Source: Mesorhizobium sp. (GTDB taxonomy: Bacteria; Pseudomonadota; Alphaproteobacteria; Rhizobiales; Rhizobiaceae). From it: a DNA stretch of 64,000 nucleotides. Shown in pieces: positions 25,217 to 35,359 of the stretch. The notes beneath the pieces are model-generated. The model was not told the DNA's origin and searched no databases. It saw only the letters and a list, made by a program, of their open reading frames with translations. The translations under genes and the position numbers were made by a program. Every line of letters starts with the position of its first letter. Position 1 is the stretch's first letter. The stretch lies in contig NZ_SUEG01000007.1 in assembly GCF_005063415.1 (NCBI RefSeq), positions 17,989-81,988 on the forward strand. The letters are read 5' to 3'.

Positions 25217-25727
25217 CCACGCCGACTTTCGCTCGCCGCAAACGCGGCCGGTGTTCCCCGAACAAGCCGACGACGCGCATCCGCGCTGCCGCGAAATGGC
25301 CGAGGCGATGCGCGAGCTGTTCTCGGTCGGCGGCGGTGTCCGCTCGAAGGACCTGATCAGCGCCGGCTTCACCTGGGCCGAAATCGCCGAGTTCAGCGAT
25401 GCGGCGGCAAAACTGGCATACGACGCCAGCGTACGCCATCTCACCAGCCGGCCCGACCTGTTGGCCGACATCATCGAGAAGGCGCGCGCGCCGCTACCGA
25501 ACCGGCCGCCGCTGCCGCGCGACACCAAGGAAAGCCAAGCGCTGCTTGTCGCGTGGGGAACCTACTGCACGGCACGCGCGGCACTCGTGCTCGACCCTTG
25601 GTCCGGCCAACGCGAGCGCTGTTTAAATCTTCTGTCGCTCTACCTCAACCGCCTGCCGATCTTCCCGGCCAACCGTGAAACGGTGATGCGCGCGATAGAG
25701 CAGTCGCTTCCGCAGGTGAGCCAGTGA
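25209..25727 (+). CDS. Hypothetical phage protein
   Basis: A 172-residue helical protein, start MLNHADFRSPQTRPVFPEQ at 25209, overlapping the previous gene by eight bases. 'SKDLISAGFTWAEIAEFSDAAAKLAYDAS' may hold an HTH-like turn. No family recognised. It ends with a GTGA overlap to the HD gene. Confidence 0.6.
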   Translation: MLNHADFRSPQTRPVFPEQADDAHPRCREMAEAMRELFSVGGGVRSKDLISAGFTWAEIAEFSDAAAKLAYDASVRHLTSRPDLLADIIEKARAPLPNRPPLPRDTKESQALLVAWGTYCTARAALVLDPWSGQRERCLNLLSLYLNRLPIFPANRETVMRAIEQSLPQVSQ

Positions 25728-26443
25728 ACCAGGAGGTGCGGCACATCTCGAAAGACGCGCGGCGGGCCGGCCAGCAAGCGGCCCGCCGCGCCAGCAAGAT
25801 GGTTCCGATCGTCATGCTGGACGGGCGGATCGCTGACCTTGCCGACTTAAGGGCCAACCAGGTCGATTTCGCCCATATCGCGGCGGCCTTGTCGAAGACA
25901 GCGCGTTTCGCGGGTCGCCATCGTGGCGGCGCGCTGTCGGTGGCGCAGCATTGCGTCATGGGGGCCGACGCTCTGTTCCGTGAAAGCGGCGATGGCGTGT
26001 TGGCCGGCTATTTCCTGTTGCATGATGCCCATGAATATCTGCTCGGCGATATCAGCCGGCCGACCGTTCTGGATATCGACCTCAAGACCGCGGAATATTT
26101 GATCGAGAATGGCGTGCCCGCCGCGATTGCTCACGGTGCCGTGGCGCATGGCATCAAGCGCTCGAAACTCGCCCTGGACGCCCCGATAATCGAGGCGGCG
26201 CAGCTTCCACCTATTTCGCGCATGCCGCTCTATGCCCGCCAGGTCGCCGAGATGGATGAACGCATGTGCATGGCGGAAGCCCGTGCGCTTTATGGCGCCA
26301 AAGGCGATTTCCCGCTCGTTCGATGCGATCTGCCGCCGCCGAAACTGACCGGCGCGATCGAGCCATGGGGCGCGATGAAGGCCGAGATCGCCTTCCTCGA
26401 CCGGCTGGAGCGCTATCTCGGCATCGTCGTGAGGGCGGCATGA
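25724..26443 (+). CDS. HD-domain phosphohydrolase (nucleotidase-like)
   Basis: A 239-residue protein with the HD signature: 'LSVAQHCVMGADAL' gives the first His, and 'YFLLHDAHEYLLGDISRP' gives the His-Asp pair and the second acidic motif. The layout is like YfbR-type 5'-nucleotidases. Phages use such enzymes to shape the nucleotide pool. Start is GTG at 25724, overlapping the preceding stop by four bases. The exact substrate cannot be deduced. Confidence 0.75.
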   Translation: MNQEVRHISKDARRAGQQAARRASKMVPIVMLDGRIADLADLRANQVDFAHIAAALSKTARFAGRHRGGALSVAQHCVMGADALFRESGDGVLAGYFLLHDAHEYLLGDISRPTVLDIDLKTAEYLIENGVPAAIAHGAVAHGIKRSKLALDAPIIEAAQLPPISRMPLYARQVAEMDERMCMAEARALYGAKGDFPLVRCDLPPPKLTGAIEPWGAMKAEIAFLDRLERYLGIVVRAA

Positions 26444-26691
26444 GCGAGCCCACCATCCGCCATTGGCACGACACGGTCGAGCGCCTGCGCGGCGGCGAGC
26501 CGCTGCGCCTGCTGATCGGCGAGAAGCTCTACAATTCGAGCGAGATCATGCTCGCCGCGCCGTTCGCGGCCAGCCTGCGCAAGGATCTGATCGCCGACAT
26601 CGAGGCGCAGATCGCCGGCCTGACGCCGCCTGATCCGAATGCGCCGGCCGGCCATGCGCTGGTCACACTGCCCGAAGAAAGGACCGCCTGA
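26440..26691 (+). CDS. Small hypothetical phage protein
   Basis: An 83-residue protein, start [16 protein letters not shown], with ATGA overlap to the HD gene and one-base overlap to ssb. '[33 protein letters not shown]' is helical and amphipathic. No family recognised. Position directly before ssb suggests a role in early DNA metabolism. Confidence 0.6.
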
Positions 26692-27170
26692 TGGCCGGAA
26701 GCCTAAACAAGGTGATGTTGATCGGCCATCTCGGCGCCGACCCGGAAATCCGCCGGCTGAACAGCGGCGACAGCGTGGTCAATTTCCGCATCGCCACATC
26801 CGAAAGCTGGCGCGACAAGACGACGGGTGAGCGCAAGGAAAAGACCGAGTGGCACACGATCGTCTGCTTCAACGAGAACATCTGCAAGGTCGCGGAGCAG
26901 TATCTGAAGAAGGGCATGAAGGTCTATGTCGAGGGTCAGCTCTCGACCCGCAAATGGGAAGACCAGTCAGGCGCCGCGCGCTACTCGACGGAAGTCGTGC
27001 TGCAGAAGTTCCGCGGCGAACTGCAGATGCTCGACAAGTCAGACCATCCCGCGCGCAGCCCTGACGATTACGGCACCCAGCGCGGCGCCTCAACGCGTCA
27101 GGAGCGCAGCCCGGCCGAGCAGCAATCGCCTGGCATGCGCGAAGCGCTCGACGACGAAATCCCGTTCTAA
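26691..27170 (+). CDS. ssb: Single-stranded DNA-binding protein
   Basis: A 159-residue SSB. The OB fold is complete ([20 protein letters not shown]... '[11 protein letters not shown]' ... '[19 protein letters not shown]' ... '[12 protein letters not shown]'), followed by a disordered linker with Gln/Arg/Ser, and the conserved acidic tip LDDEIPF at the C-terminus that recruits replication and repair partners. It would coat phage single strands during replication. Start overlaps the preceding stop by one base. Close to bacterial SSB in length. Confidence 0.95.
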
Positions 27171-27186
27171 CCAGAGGAGCAAGAGC

Positions 27187-27456
27187 ATGGCGCAAGCCAG
27201 GAAGAAGTCTGCCGTCGATCAGGCGATTAACCAGACCGAGACACCGGAGGCAACCATCAAGCGCCTGGCTGGAGAGGTAAAGAAGTTTTCCGACTGGTGG
27301 CACGAGGACAGACGAAAAGTGGAGCGTCTGGAGCACCAGTTGCAGGCTCTTCAGGGCACCCTTCGCTCGATCTCAAATCTCGCACGCATCGATATCGGAG
27401 GCTTTGTCGAGCGCTGCGATCGCGGCAGCCCTTACGACGACCATATCCCCTTCTAG
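27187..27456 (+). CDS. Small coiled-coil protein with SSB-like C-terminal tip
   Basis: An 89-residue protein from ATG 27187, 16 bases after ssb, with AGAGGAGCAAGAG as ribosome site. It is highly charged, with a predicted coiled-coil (ATIKRLAGEVKKFSDWW, then 'RKVERLEHQLQALQGTL'). It ends PYDDHIPF, which copies the SSB acidic tip (DDxIPF) found in the neighbouring gene. It has no OB fold. It may compete with SSB for tip-binding host proteins or bring them to the phage; this is inference from the C-terminus. Confidence 0.7.
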   Translation: MAQARKKSAVDQAINQTETPEATIKRLAGEVKKFSDWWHEDRRKVERLEHQLQALQGTLRSISNLARIDIGGFVERCDRGSPYDDHIPF

Positions 27457-27563
27457 CCCGCGACTGCGGGCCGGCGATCGTTCGCCGCCCCGTCCGGAGG
27501 CCAGCCTGCCGGCGGCTTCGGTTCGGCCAACACTGACGGCAGGCGCACGGCCGTGAGGAAACC

Positions 27564-27902
27564 ATGAAGAAAATACGCGATGCCCAGACCATCATCGGCA
27601 TGCTGGAGGGCGGCGAAGTCGCCGCCGCCATGTCGACCGAGATCACCGAGACGCTGGCCAAGCTGAAGGAGCTTTCCGGCGACCGGCCAAAGACCAAGAT
27701 CAAGGGCCACGTCTCGCTCAAGATCAACGTGGAGGTCGAGGCCGGCACGGCGACGATCACCTGCGAGATCGATTCGAAGCGACCGAAGCCGGCGCGCGGC
27801 TCGTCCTTCTACTGGGTGCTGGATGACGGCTCGCTGTCGACCGAGCATCCGCAACAGACCGACATGTTCGCCGGCCCGCGCGCGGCCGCCGATCGCCAGT
27901 AG
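27564..27902 (+). CDS. Hypothetical phage protein with clamp-binding motif
   Basis: A 112-residue protein. A helical N-terminus (TIIGMLEGGEVAAAMSTEITETLAKLKEL) leads to a beta-rich middle (VSLKINVEVEAGTATITCEI) and a C-terminal tail with QQTDMF, which fits the QxDMF/QL[SD]LF pentapeptide that binds the bacterial sliding clamp. It stands beside DUF2303 and a phage clamp gene. The family often accompanies DUF2303 in phages; function is unknown. Confidence 0.65.
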   Translation: MKKIRDAQTIIGMLEGGEVAAAMSTEITETLAKLKELSGDRPKTKIKGHVSLKINVEVEAGTATITCEIDSKRPKPARGSSFYWVLDDGSLSTEHPQQTDMFAGPRAAADRQ

Positions 27903-27937: not shown

Positions 27938-28903
27938 ATGAACGCCAAGACCACGCCTGCCGCCGAGACGTCGGAACTTATAGCGCCAGCCGCCGGCATC
28001 GACATCAAGGCCATCGCCCAGCTCGGCGCCGATGCAAGCGCCATCACCTTGTCGATGCTGGCCGCACCCGCAGGCATGGTCGGCGTGCCCGCTTCGATCC
28101 CCGTGGCCTTGGTCAACGGCCGCTCGCCCGAAGCCCGCGGCGTCGCCAACCTGTTCGAACCGTTCCGCCAGCACCCTGCCCGCAAAAGCGGCCAGGCGGT
28201 CGCGCAGACCTTCGAAGCGTTCTGCGACCTGACCAATCGCCACAAGACTGTCGACAGCGTCATCTTCGCCGACGCCGACTGGCGCAATCCGTCCTTCACC
28301 GCCGTCATCGACTATCACCAAAACTTATCGGGCGGCCTCGCCGCGTTCGGCAAGCACCGCGTCCACTACGCTTTCCCGCTGTCCGAGGAGTGGAAGAAGT
28401 GGATCGAGATGAACGGCGAACCGATGAAGCAGGCCGAGTTCGCCTATTTCCTCGAGGATCGCGTTGCCGAGCTCTCCTCGCCGACCGAGCATGAGCGGGC
28501 CACCTTCGAACAGCAGTTCCAGACCAAGATCGCGACGCCTGCGCAAGTGGTCGAGCTATCGCGCGGGCTGAAGATCAACATCGACACCAAGGTCAAGACG
28601 GCAACCACGCTGCAGAGCGGCGAAGGCCAGATCGCCTGGGAAGAGGCGCACAACGATGTCGATGGCAAGCCGCTGAAGGTGCCCGGCCTGTTCATGCTCA
28701 ACCTGGCGCCGTTCTTCATGGGCGAGAAGGTGCGCATTCCGGTCAGGCTGCGTTACCGTCCGTCGGGCGCCATGATCATGTGGTCGTATCAGATCTATCG
28801 GCCCGACCAGGCGATCAACGAGCATGTGCGCAGCACGCTTGCCGAGGTGCGCAGTAAGACCGACCTACCGGCCTACGAAGGCACGCCGGAGATGTCGGCG
28901 TGA
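27938..28903 (+). CDS. DUF2303 family phage protein
   Basis: A 321-residue protein of the DUF2303 type, with 'RHKTVDSVIFADADWRNPSFTAVIDYHQ' and 'HRVHYAFPLSEEWKKW' in the first half and 'PLKVPGLFMLNLAPFFMGEKVRIPVRLRYR' in the second. The family is frequent in temperate phages next to recombination genes, but its role has not been established. It overlaps the clamp gene by four bases, which suggests joint production with it. Confidence 0.8.
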   Translation: MNAKTTPAAETSELIAPAAGIDIKAIAQLGADASAITLSMLAAPAGMVGVPASIPVALVNGRSPEARGVANLFEPFRQHPARKSGQAVAQTFEAFCDLTNRHKTVDSVIFADADWRNPSFTAVIDYHQNLSGGLAAFGKHRVHYAFPLSEEWKKWIEMNGEPMKQAEFAYFLEDRVAELSSPTEHERATFEQQFQTKIATPAQVVELSRGLKINIDTKVKTATTLQSGEGQIAWEEAHNDVDGKPLKVPGLFMLNLAPFFMGEKVRIPVRLRYRPSGAMIMWSYQIYRPDQAINEHVRSTLAEVRSKTDLPAYEGTPEMSA

Positions 28904-30024
28904 AAAAGCCAGACGCCATCATTCTCGCGCGGGAGGCTTTGCTTCCCGCGCTCGGCCTGGTCAGCAAGGCCGTCGAGCGGCGCAGCACCATTCCGGTGCT
29001 GGCCAACGTCTTGCTCGCCGTCGACGCCGCGGCCGGCACGCTGACGATCACCGGGTCCGACCTCGACTGCGAGCTGCGCACCACGCTTTCGTGCCAGGCT
29101 GGCAAGGACGAGGCGTTCACGCTGCCTTCGGGGATCCTGCACGACGCGGTGCGCAAGATGCCGGACGGCGCCGAGATCGCGCTTGTCGCTGAAAAGGATT
29201 TCGCCGCGCTGAGCGCAGGCCGCTCGCGCTTCCGCATCCAGATCCTGCCGGCAACCGATTTCCCGACCATGGATGCCGGCAGCCTTAGCCACAGTTTCGA
29301 ACTCGACGCCGGGCTGGTCGCGCGCATGCTCGACACCGTCTCGTTCGCCATCTCGAGCGAGGAGACGCGCTATTACCTCAACGGCATCTATTGGCATGCC
29401 GGCGAAACGCTCAACGCCGTTGCCACCGATGGCCACCGCCTGGCCAAGTTCGCCGCCCCCTTGCCCGAGGGCGCCTCCGGCATGCCGGCCATCATCATCC
29501 CGCGCCGCACGGTCGGGCTGATCCGCCAGCTGATCGGCGACAAGGACGCGGTCAAGGTCTCCCTTTCCGACCTGAAGATCCGCGTCGAGACCGGCCAGGG
29601 CACGCTCCTGTCGAAGCTGATCGACGGCAGCTATCCGGATTACCAGCGCGTCATCCCGGCCAGCAACGCCAACCATTTCACCGTCGAGCGGGAAGCGCTG
29701 GCCAAGTCCGTCGATCGCGTCACCACCGTATCGAGCGGACGCGGCAGCGCGGTGAAATTCGCCTTCGAGCCCGGCGGCAATCTGACCCTGACCACAAATA
29801 ATCCTGATGCCGGCAGCGCCAATGACGAGGTGACGATCGAGCATGGCGAGGGCGACAGCGTCGAGATCGGCTTCAACGGCCGCTACTGCCTCGACCTGCT
29901 CAACGCCGCGGAAGGCAAGCGCCTGGTGTTCAGCCTCGGCGACCCCGGCTCGCCGACCTTGATCCAGCCGGAAACCGATGACGAGCTGAAGCCGCTCTTC
30001 GTCCTGATGCCAATGAGGGTTTGA
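28900..30024 (+). CDS. dnaN: Phage-encoded DNA polymerase III beta sliding clamp
   Basis: A complete 374-residue clamp subunit, the usual length of bacterial DnaN. All three clamp domains are present: domain 1 with 'VERRSTIPVLANVLL', domain 2 with 'FAISSEETRYYLNGIYWH' and 'LNAVATDGHRLA', domain 3 with 'IPASNANHFTVEREAL', ending in 'LFVLMPMRV' like host clamps (MPMR/L). It starts with GTG inside the DUF2303 end. Bacterial-type clamps are unusual in temperate phages. It would tether the host polymerase to phage DNA; the phage has no polymerase gene in this window. Confidence 0.93.
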   Translation: MKKPDAIILAREALLPALGLVSKAVERRSTIPVLANVLLAVDAAAGTLTITGSDLDCELRTTLSCQAGKDEAFTLPSGILHDAVRKMPDGAEIALVAEKDFAALSAGRSRFRIQILPATDFPTMDAGSLSHSFELDAGLVARMLDTVSFAISSEETRYYLNGIYWHAGETLNAVATDGHRLAKFAAPLPEGASGMPAIIIPRRTVGLIRQLIGDKDAVKVSLSDLKIRVETGQGTLLSKLIDGSYPDYQRVIPASNANHFTVEREALAKSVDRVTTVSSGRGSAVKFAFEPGGNLTLTTNNPDAGSANDEVTIEHGEGDSVEIGFNGRYCLDLLNAAEGKRLVFSLGDPGSPTLIQPETDDELKPLFVLMPMRV

Positions 30025-34128: not shown

Positions 34129-34520
34129 CCGACGACGACAAGCCGATTCGGCTCCAGGAAGCCTGCGACCGGTTCTTCGGTGGCAGGCTGACGCCAAAGG
34201 GGCTGCGCGCCGAGGCGCGCAAGGGGAATTTGACAATCGAGCGGATTGCAAACAAGGATTTCGTCACCCCTTCCGCAATCATGGAAATGCGCCTCAAATG
34301 CCGCGTCGGAAAAGCCCTCCCCGCATCGTCCCCCGGCTCGACCGGGACGGCGTCAAGCGGCTCGTCATCCGCGACGGGTCCGTTTACAAGCGAACGGGAT
34401 GCCTTGTTGGCGAAACTGAGAGCGCGGCGGAAAAGCTCGCGGAATACATCGGCCAAAAAAAGCAAAAGCCCGTCGTCGTCGAACGTGGTCCAGATCACAT
34501 CGCGTGCGCGGCAGCTCTAG
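34125..34520 (+). CDS. Excisionase-like DNA-binding protein
   Basis: A 131-residue protein. Residues 8-60 (IRLQEACDRFFGGRLTPKGLRAEARKGNLTIERI, then 'DFVTPSAIMEM') form a MerR/Xis-like winged helix. The rest is Ser/Lys-rich and low in complexity, and it is read out of frame with the beginning of the integrase for 223 bases. Position directly before the integrase supports a recombination directionality factor. A role as regulator alone cannot be excluded. Confidence 0.7.
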   Translation: MTDDDKPIRLQEACDRFFGGRLTPKGLRAEARKGNLTIERIANKDFVTPSAIMEMRLKCRVGKALPASSPGSTGTASSGSSSATGPFTSERDALLAKLRARRKSSRNTSAKKSKSPSSSNVVQITSRARQL

Positions 34521-35359
34521 ATTACTATCTCGCCGCCAAGCAATCCCGTGACGAAGATACCAGCCCGCTTGAGGGCCGAATCGCCTTCCTGACGCTCTTC
34601 TGGGGCGACAAGCCGCTGTCGGCGATCGACGGCGAGACCTGCCGCGAATACGCCGAAAGCCGCATCCACCAGGCGGCCGCGCGCCGCGAGCTCGAGGATC
34701 TTCGAGCCGCCGTCTACATGTTCTGCAAGGAGAAGCGGCTGAACTTCCGGCCGTATTTCGACCTTCCCGACAAGCCCGTCGCCCGCGAACGCTGGCTCAC
34801 GCGCCAGGAGGCGGCCGAGCTGCTGCGCGCAGCACTTCGCCTGCGCCGCGCCAGGCCGAAGACCTATGAGTGCCTGCCGCGCTTCATCCTGATCGGGCTC
34901 TATACCGGCACCAGGCACGCGGCGATCCTGGATCTCAACTGGAACCGCGGCCCGGCCGGCGGCTGGCCGGATCTGGACGCCGGCGTTCTCTACAGGCGTG
35001 GCGAGCGCGTGCGCGAAACGACCAAGCGCCGGCCGCCGATGCGGCTGCCGCGGCGGCTGATAGCGCATCTGAAACGGTGGCGCCGGATCGACGGCGGCAA
35101 GGGTCCGGTGATCCACGCCAAGGGCGGCGAGCCGATCGGCCTGATGCGCAAGTCGTTCGACGCCGCGCGCGTCGAGGCCAAGCTTGGCGAGGAAGTCACC
35201 CCGCACATCATGCGCCACACGCGCGCGACCTGGTTGATGCAGCGCCGCGTTCCGATCTGGGATGCTGCCGGCTCGCTCGGCATGACCGTCAAGCAGATGG
35301 AAACGACATACGGCCACCATCATCCGGACTTCCAGCAGGCTGCCGCCGATGCCTACTAA
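34298..35359 (+). CDS. int: Tyrosine site-specific integrase
   Basis: A 353-residue tyrosine recombinase that would insert and excise the prophage. The N-terminal arm-binding part is basic, the core-binding part runs from about 70 to 160, and the catalytic domain shows the first Arg (LYTGTRHAAIL), the His-x-x-Arg pair (ITPHIMRH-type sequence, here TPHIMRHTRATWLM), and the nucleophile region (METTYGHHHPDF) with the Tyr. It is the last gene of the rightward operon. Start ATG 34298 lies inside the excisionase-like gene. Confidence 0.9.
   Translation: MPRRKSPPRIVPRLDRDGVKRLVIRDGSVYKRTGCLVGETESAAEKLAEYIGQKKQKPVVVERGPDHIACAAALDYYLAAKQSRDEDTSPLEGRIAFLTLFWGDKPLSAIDGETCREYAESRIHQAAARRELEDLRAAVYMFCKEKRLNFRPYFDLPDKPVARERWLTRQEAAELLRAALRLRRARPKTYECLPRFILIGLYTGTRHAAILDLNWNRGPAGGWPDLDAGVLYRRGERVRETTKRRPPMRLPRRLIAHLKRWRRIDGGKGPVIHAKGGEPIGLMRKSFDAARVEAKLGEEVTPHIMRHTRATWLMQRRVPIWDAAGSLGMTVKQMETTYGHHHPDFQQAAADAY

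Follow-up and report, generated by a model that had tools for sequence, protein, structure and literature searches.

A small phage protein encoded directly after ssb carries an SSB-like C-terminal tip and no OB fold

The C-terminal tip of the single-stranded DNA-binding protein SSB is a hub signal by which bacteria recruit proteins of repair and replication to single-stranded DNA. In the available text of PMC10164576, a pocket of the SSB-interacting proteins takes up the terminal Phe of the tip together with its Asp residues, and the tip determinants named are this Phe, the Pro before it and the Asp residues: deletion of the Phe abolishes the binding between SSB and its interacting proteins, and loss of the Phe or a Pro to Ser exchange abolishes or weakens binding. 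According to the accessible part of PMC5928155, the tip of a phage SSB of the DUF669 type (end NDYPPF) recruits the phage recombinase Sak4. The tip has further been placed on another protein, as the excerpt of PMC8509808 on the PriB-SSBc chimera describes for the C-terminal part of SSB. A survey of the open-licence literature yielded no report of an SSB tip on a natural phage protein other than SSB, which is weak evidence of absence as subscription papers lie mostly outside it.

Here we describe a phage protein of 89 residues, referred to as the tip protein, which shares with the SSB C-terminus (PF00436) the last six residues D-[DE]-x-[IL]-P-F, the terminal Phe and a flexible tail, but has neither an OB fold nor homology to SSB and has a predicted helix instead. 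It has the C-terminal tip in common with divergent phage SSBs (DUF669, phrog_18154, the Gp2.5-like phrog_112) and Erf-type annealing proteins; however, these carry annotations for DNA binding or annealing, and the tip protein matches none of them. The likeness to the PriB-SSBc chimera, as far as the excerpt goes, ends at the arrangement, since the chimera is artificial and its carrier is an OB-fold protein.

The gene is located at 27187..27456 on the forward strand of the window, i.e., the whole stretch of 64,000 nucleotides of Mesorhizobium sp. DNA that was analysed, directly 3' of a phage ssb gene (26691..27170, forward strand; 159 residues; Pfam SSB, E 1.8e-35; phrog_44, E 1.4e-46). The earlier note on this DNA had given this position and content, and both were correct; also the C-terminal ends it had read, PYDDHIPF in the 89-residue protein and LDDEIPF in the upstream SSB, were confirmed in the translations. 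The ssb stop lies at 27170 and the tip gene begins 16 nt later with an ATG, which is preceded by the purine-rich site ccagaggagcaagagc; direct reading of the gap (27171..27186) reveals an RBS-like gaggag, and a gap of similar size occurs in the related loci L004, L007 and L008. Codons 84-89 (27436..27453) encode the tip, DDHIPF. That the ORF is a stray frame was rejected on account of its coding signal, a core pN/pS of 0.16-0.33 among five homologues.

The tip gene is embedded in a block of phage genes on the same strand. Upstream lie, in addition to ssb, an 83-residue ORF without a family in Pfam or PHROGs and a phosphatase-like gene (25724..26443), which matches phrog_318 and phrog_8467 (deoxyribonucleoside 5' monophosphate phosphatase) and had no Pfam match at 0.01. 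Downstream follow p112 (27564..27902; 112 residues; phrog_204, function unknown), a gene for a DUF2303 protein (27938..28903; PF10065, E 2.2e-45; phrog_210) and dnaN for a phage DNA polymerase sliding clamp (28900..30024; Pfam DNA_pol3_beta domains; phrog_947). A D5-type primase and a second primase-like protein are encoded on the opposite strand, and a phage integrase gene is located at 34298-35359. The closest relative, MesoLjLa5 of Mesorhizobium sp. L-2-11, is a circular record of 56,663 bp. As its annotation includes terminase, portal, capsid, tail sheath and integrase genes, the host element is a temperate phage.

Five distinct sequences were accepted as members of the tip protein family: the window protein and its homologues in MesoLjLa5 (L004 3513-3848; 84% identity to the window protein; end DDSLPF), L007 (4489-4794; 68%; DDEIPF), L008 (4489-4797; 69%; DDNIPF) and L077 (start taken at 2067, stop ending at 2393; 60%; DEDIPF). 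All five, the window protein included, end in D-[DE]-x-[IL]-P-F, so that homologues lacking the motif, which the earlier note had named as evidence against its reading, were absent from the accepted set (0/5). Adjacency to ssb, likewise raised there, was found in all five loci. In each case the tip gene lies between ssb upstream and p112 downstream, and DUF2303 and dnaN follow further downstream in the window, L004, L007 and L008, for which the whole block was compared; the neighbourhood of L077 was compared for ssb and p112 only.

Within the tip, the second acidic residue is D or E and the inner x is H, S, E, N or D, and both the linker upstream of the tip and the N-terminus vary among the homologues, as do the codons. 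The N-terminal part is basic, with a net charge of +2 to +6; its length is 15 to 37 residues and its pN/pS ranges from 0.27 to 2.05. The core displayed a low pN/pS in all ten pairs at a pS of 0.41-0.78, i.e., at strongly diverged synonymous sites, and by this measure is under purifying selection. The last six codons are too few for a pN/pS statistic of their own. Kept in 5/5 against a changing x residue, linker and N-terminus, the tip itself appears to be selected. Judged by alignment, the most telling homologue is that of L077, where the ssb is divergent (55% identity to the best of four SSB queries) and the linker differs (PKWSAHDH), but the tip is still there. Shared descent may explain part of the tip conservation in this small family of five sequences, four of which are the window protein or 68-84% identical to it. 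Taken together, the tip protein is real, conserved and probably functional, and it represents a new small family.

Accepted matches occurred in 2/146 whole genomes of the genus and in 1/394, 1/397 and 1/352 genomes of the family, order and class draws, respectively, the window's own genome being counted in each; a contig of assembly G087 was counted as the same sequence as MesoLjLa5, and the MesoLjLa5 record was the only match in the plasmid search. No homologue was found among genome contigs, in the phage set with three queries, or among viral contigs with a single-sequence query; the last search missed two isolate loci that were later reached through their SSB. Matches in L003 (E 8.8e-4), L005 (E 9.4e-4) and L147 (1e-5 relative to the candidates) were rejected as unrelated ORFs or frames with no tip and no adjoining ssb, the L147 ORF having a KQFSDWW stretch in common with the family. 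L006 (E 0.0084) and the eight matches L056-L063 (3.4e-4 to 0.009) were likewise dropped as weak; searched with the profile of the five sequences, none reached E 0.01 (best 0.015).

A chance origin of the tip was rejected from two counts. In the window's own assembly, G000 (6,168,130 bases), the pattern GANGANNNNVTNCCNTTYTRR matched three times, in the host ssb, the phage ssb and the tip gene, and once when read backwards; the host ssb (L068) is located on another contig, and its product is 66% identical to the phage SSB. The second count used a tip-blind sample of 83 stretches picked by ssb or by the neighbouring gene p112 (the window, L149, L007-L054 and L071-L103), in which 39 of the 5,234 distinct ORFs of at least 60 residues end in [DE][DE]x[ILVM]PF. 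SSB profiles account for 34 of these 39 and the tip family for the remaining five, leaving none outside both groups. Scrambled motif orders (359) averaged 0.25 ends, and the two high ones (43 and 38) were variants of the SSB tip. In two phage SSB frames, those of L073 and L095, the reading frame runs four residues beyond the tip (DDEIPF and DDDIPF, then APEWR-type ends), and the tip is therefore not C-terminal.

The claim that the protein has no OB fold and is not an SSB held up, as neither Pfam nor PHROGs returned an SSB match and the AlphaFold2 model is helical. From the five-sequence alignment A5, helices at residues 3-15 and 20-78 and a loose tail were predicted with a mean pLDDT of 76 and a pTM of 0.39. 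Codons 20-78 (27244..27420) would form a single long helix; pLDDT is 80-93 for residues 21-70, 63 for residues 71-80 and 55-63 in the tail, and the short helix 3-15 is of low confidence. The label 'coiled-coil' rests on one predicted helix. Pfam matches of the window protein were all below the cut-offs, alignment A5 had no PHROGs match at 0.1, the best PDB sequence match reached E 0.44, and NCBIfam and PADLOC gave a few low-score matches of single members. Profiles of DUF669 (Pfam) and Gp2.5-like phage SSBs (PHROGs, at 0.1) did not match the protein either. The BFVD fold search gave no E below 4; for a single-helix model, this and the PDB result carry little weight.

All determinants named in the available text of PMC10164576 are present in the tip protein, on a flexible end, and docking to SSB-interacting proteins is therefore the reading we favour. 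We consider it rather probable that the tip docks into genome-maintenance proteins of host or phage through their SSB-tip pockets and that the protein is an accessory display for this tip. The long helix, perhaps as an oligomer, would bear a flexible tail with a functional SSB C-terminal tip, and proteins normally called to SSB-coated DNA would bind the tip protein, too. Candidate partners are, on the host side, RecO and Pol III chi, whose genes the assembly of the window contains, and, on the phage side, primase or recombination proteins. Encoded right after ssb, the tip protein would be made together with this SSB, sharing its tips or competing with them. A point against the docking reading is the N-terminus, whose length of 15 to 37 residues leaves no evident conserved module for binding apart from the helix. 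As to the direction of the effect, a decoy acting by competition would rank a little above an adapter within the docking reading, and the phage may use the SSB-like tail to redirect tip-binding enzymes. The tip protein is perhaps a phage means of steering host recombination, and a phage protein that shows the SSB tip without being an SSB would offer a small, genetically tractable probe of the tip interactions that matter to infection.

The possible, if less likely, alternative is an adapter, in which the helix binds a phage protein (p112, the DUF2303 protein, the clamp or the primase) and the tip ties this complex to host SSB-interacting proteins, or in which extra tips are brought to SSB-coated DNA through a target that the helix binds there. 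It draws on the conserved company of the gene, next to ssb and p112 in all five loci and with DUF2303 and dnaN in four, and on the helix core, which is the most conserved part of the protein. In the available text of PMC4776307, overexpression of the E. coli prophage cluster yfdQRST, of which YfdQ is a DUF2303 protein, inhibits the initiation of host replication, so that DUF2303-type blocks can act on host replication. However, other phages have the complete block and lack the tip gene, and the AlphaFold2 model of p112 is poor (pLDDT 62).

The first of these objections derives from the slot between ssb and p112. Among 33 viral loci with p112, 19 have an SSB match upstream; three of these contain the tip gene, 14 are empty (ssb and p112 less than 131 nt apart) and two harbor another ORF. 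With the window and MesoLjLa5 added, which were found by other routes, the tip gene occupies 5/21 slots. Since it is absent from 16/19 of the related ssb-bearing viral loci, the tip gene is dispensable, which also weighs against the docking reading, and by its distribution it is an accessory cassette. The occurrence of the tip gene, of other ORFs or of nothing marks the slot as a site of gene gain. In L019 (4502-4793; the contig also appears as L102), the slot contains an unrelated 86-residue P-loop ORF, behind which the ssb 3' end recurs as a vestigial second copy that reads SRDLDDDIPF; from its placement, this copy is a trace of cassette insertion.

It is unlikely that the protein is a regulator of the phage SSB, with the tip binding the SSB OB fold in place of the SSB's own tails and tuning DNA binding or tail exposure: an interaction of the SSB tip with its OB domain is mentioned in the available parts of PMC10164576 and PMC5928155, and the gene sits directly 3' of ssb in 5/5 loci, but the interaction is described as weak in PMC5928155. 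Slightly less likely still is a functionless leftover, in which a cassette inserted at the ssb 3' end happened to become joined to a duplicate of the ssb tail; the L019 copy demonstrates that such duplication happens there, but the tip is kept in five homologues despite the diverged synonymous sites and the changing linker, and codons and stop differ from ssb, so that duplication may explain the origin of the tip and not its upkeep. A recent copy of the ssb end was rejected from these differences, and none of the five tips looks recently copied. For the first tip in a non-SSB gene, duplication of the ssb tail could, we infer, have been the source.

The earlier note knew of no described family of this kind, and this part did not stand. 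A scan of IMG/VR for GACGAYNNNATHCCNTTYTAG gave at least 120 stretches, of which 80 were kept, a sample that is selected for the tip and therefore bears on existence and not on frequency. Among the 80 tip ORFs listed, 23 match an SSB profile built from the phage's relatives and 57 do not. Of the latter, 53 were aligned and scanned after removal of one with an X and of L186, L189 and L206, which are short or of low complexity. At least six of the 53 match PHROGs SSB families and two match a Gp2.5-like family (counted among 25 of the 42 PHROGs families matched); further matches are DUF6511 (four), Pam3_Gp34 (three) and ERF, AAA, DUF669 and a CAP12 TIR domain (one each). Direct scans placed DUF6511 above the cut-off in L224, L160 and L222 and below it in L177, and recovered ERF in L154, AAA in L207 and the TIR domain in L159; L218 matches a Cas4-domain exonuclease in PHROGs. 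The L159 ORF (4873-5745, forward strand), with its CAP12-type TIR domain, ends in DDDIPF.

DUF6511 (PF20121, function unknown) is a non-SSB family with the same end, and its 69-position Pfam model reaches the last residue in three members. Relatives were fetched without regard to the tip pattern (80 kept out of 200, L270-L349; 71 distinct), and 69/71 of these close relatives end in [DE][DE]x[ILV]PF, the two others in DDPIQF and ADEIPF; as the relatives are at least 74% identical to the query, descent accounts for part of this conservation. Like the tip protein, DUF6511 members are non-SSB phage proteins with this tip, and L222 is even a stand-alone protein of 72 residues; unlike it, some carry a Cys-rich region upstream. 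PF20121 did not match the window protein up to E 1, and no paper in the open-licence literature names DUF6511. When the profiles of DUF6511 and the tip family were compared, only the last 18 columns aligned (probability 32%, E 0.0005), and an alignment confined to the tip end points to separate gains of the tip. That this end also occurs on Erf, AAA, Cas4-like and TIR-domain proteins further argues against uniqueness in kind. A broader and more tentative reading, to which we give somewhat less than even weight, is that the SSB tip is a portable phage docking motif, with which the tip family, DUF6511 and the single Erf, AAA, Cas4-like and TIR cases would capture SSB-interacting proteins of host and phage or redirect them, the tip family being the pure display form without a DNA-binding domain. 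The retention of this end in DUF6511 and other phage families suggests that the motif has a general use which has gone largely unexamined.

A separate observation concerns the region between the tip gene and p112 (27457-27563), a conserved non-coding element and a candidate cis-regulatory RNA. It consists of two short hairpins, GTCCGGAGGCCAGC, a variable hairpin and ACGGCCGYGAGGACA, the last reaching into the p112 start region. Rfam gave no match for 27150-27620 up to E 5. RNAalifold on nine sequences predicted 23 pairs, six of which are changed on both sides, with a covariation term of -0.44. The element also occurs in L074, where the tip gene is lacking, and in L140, L141 and L142 in unrelated contexts; the window copy reads GAGGAAACC where the others have GAGGACA.
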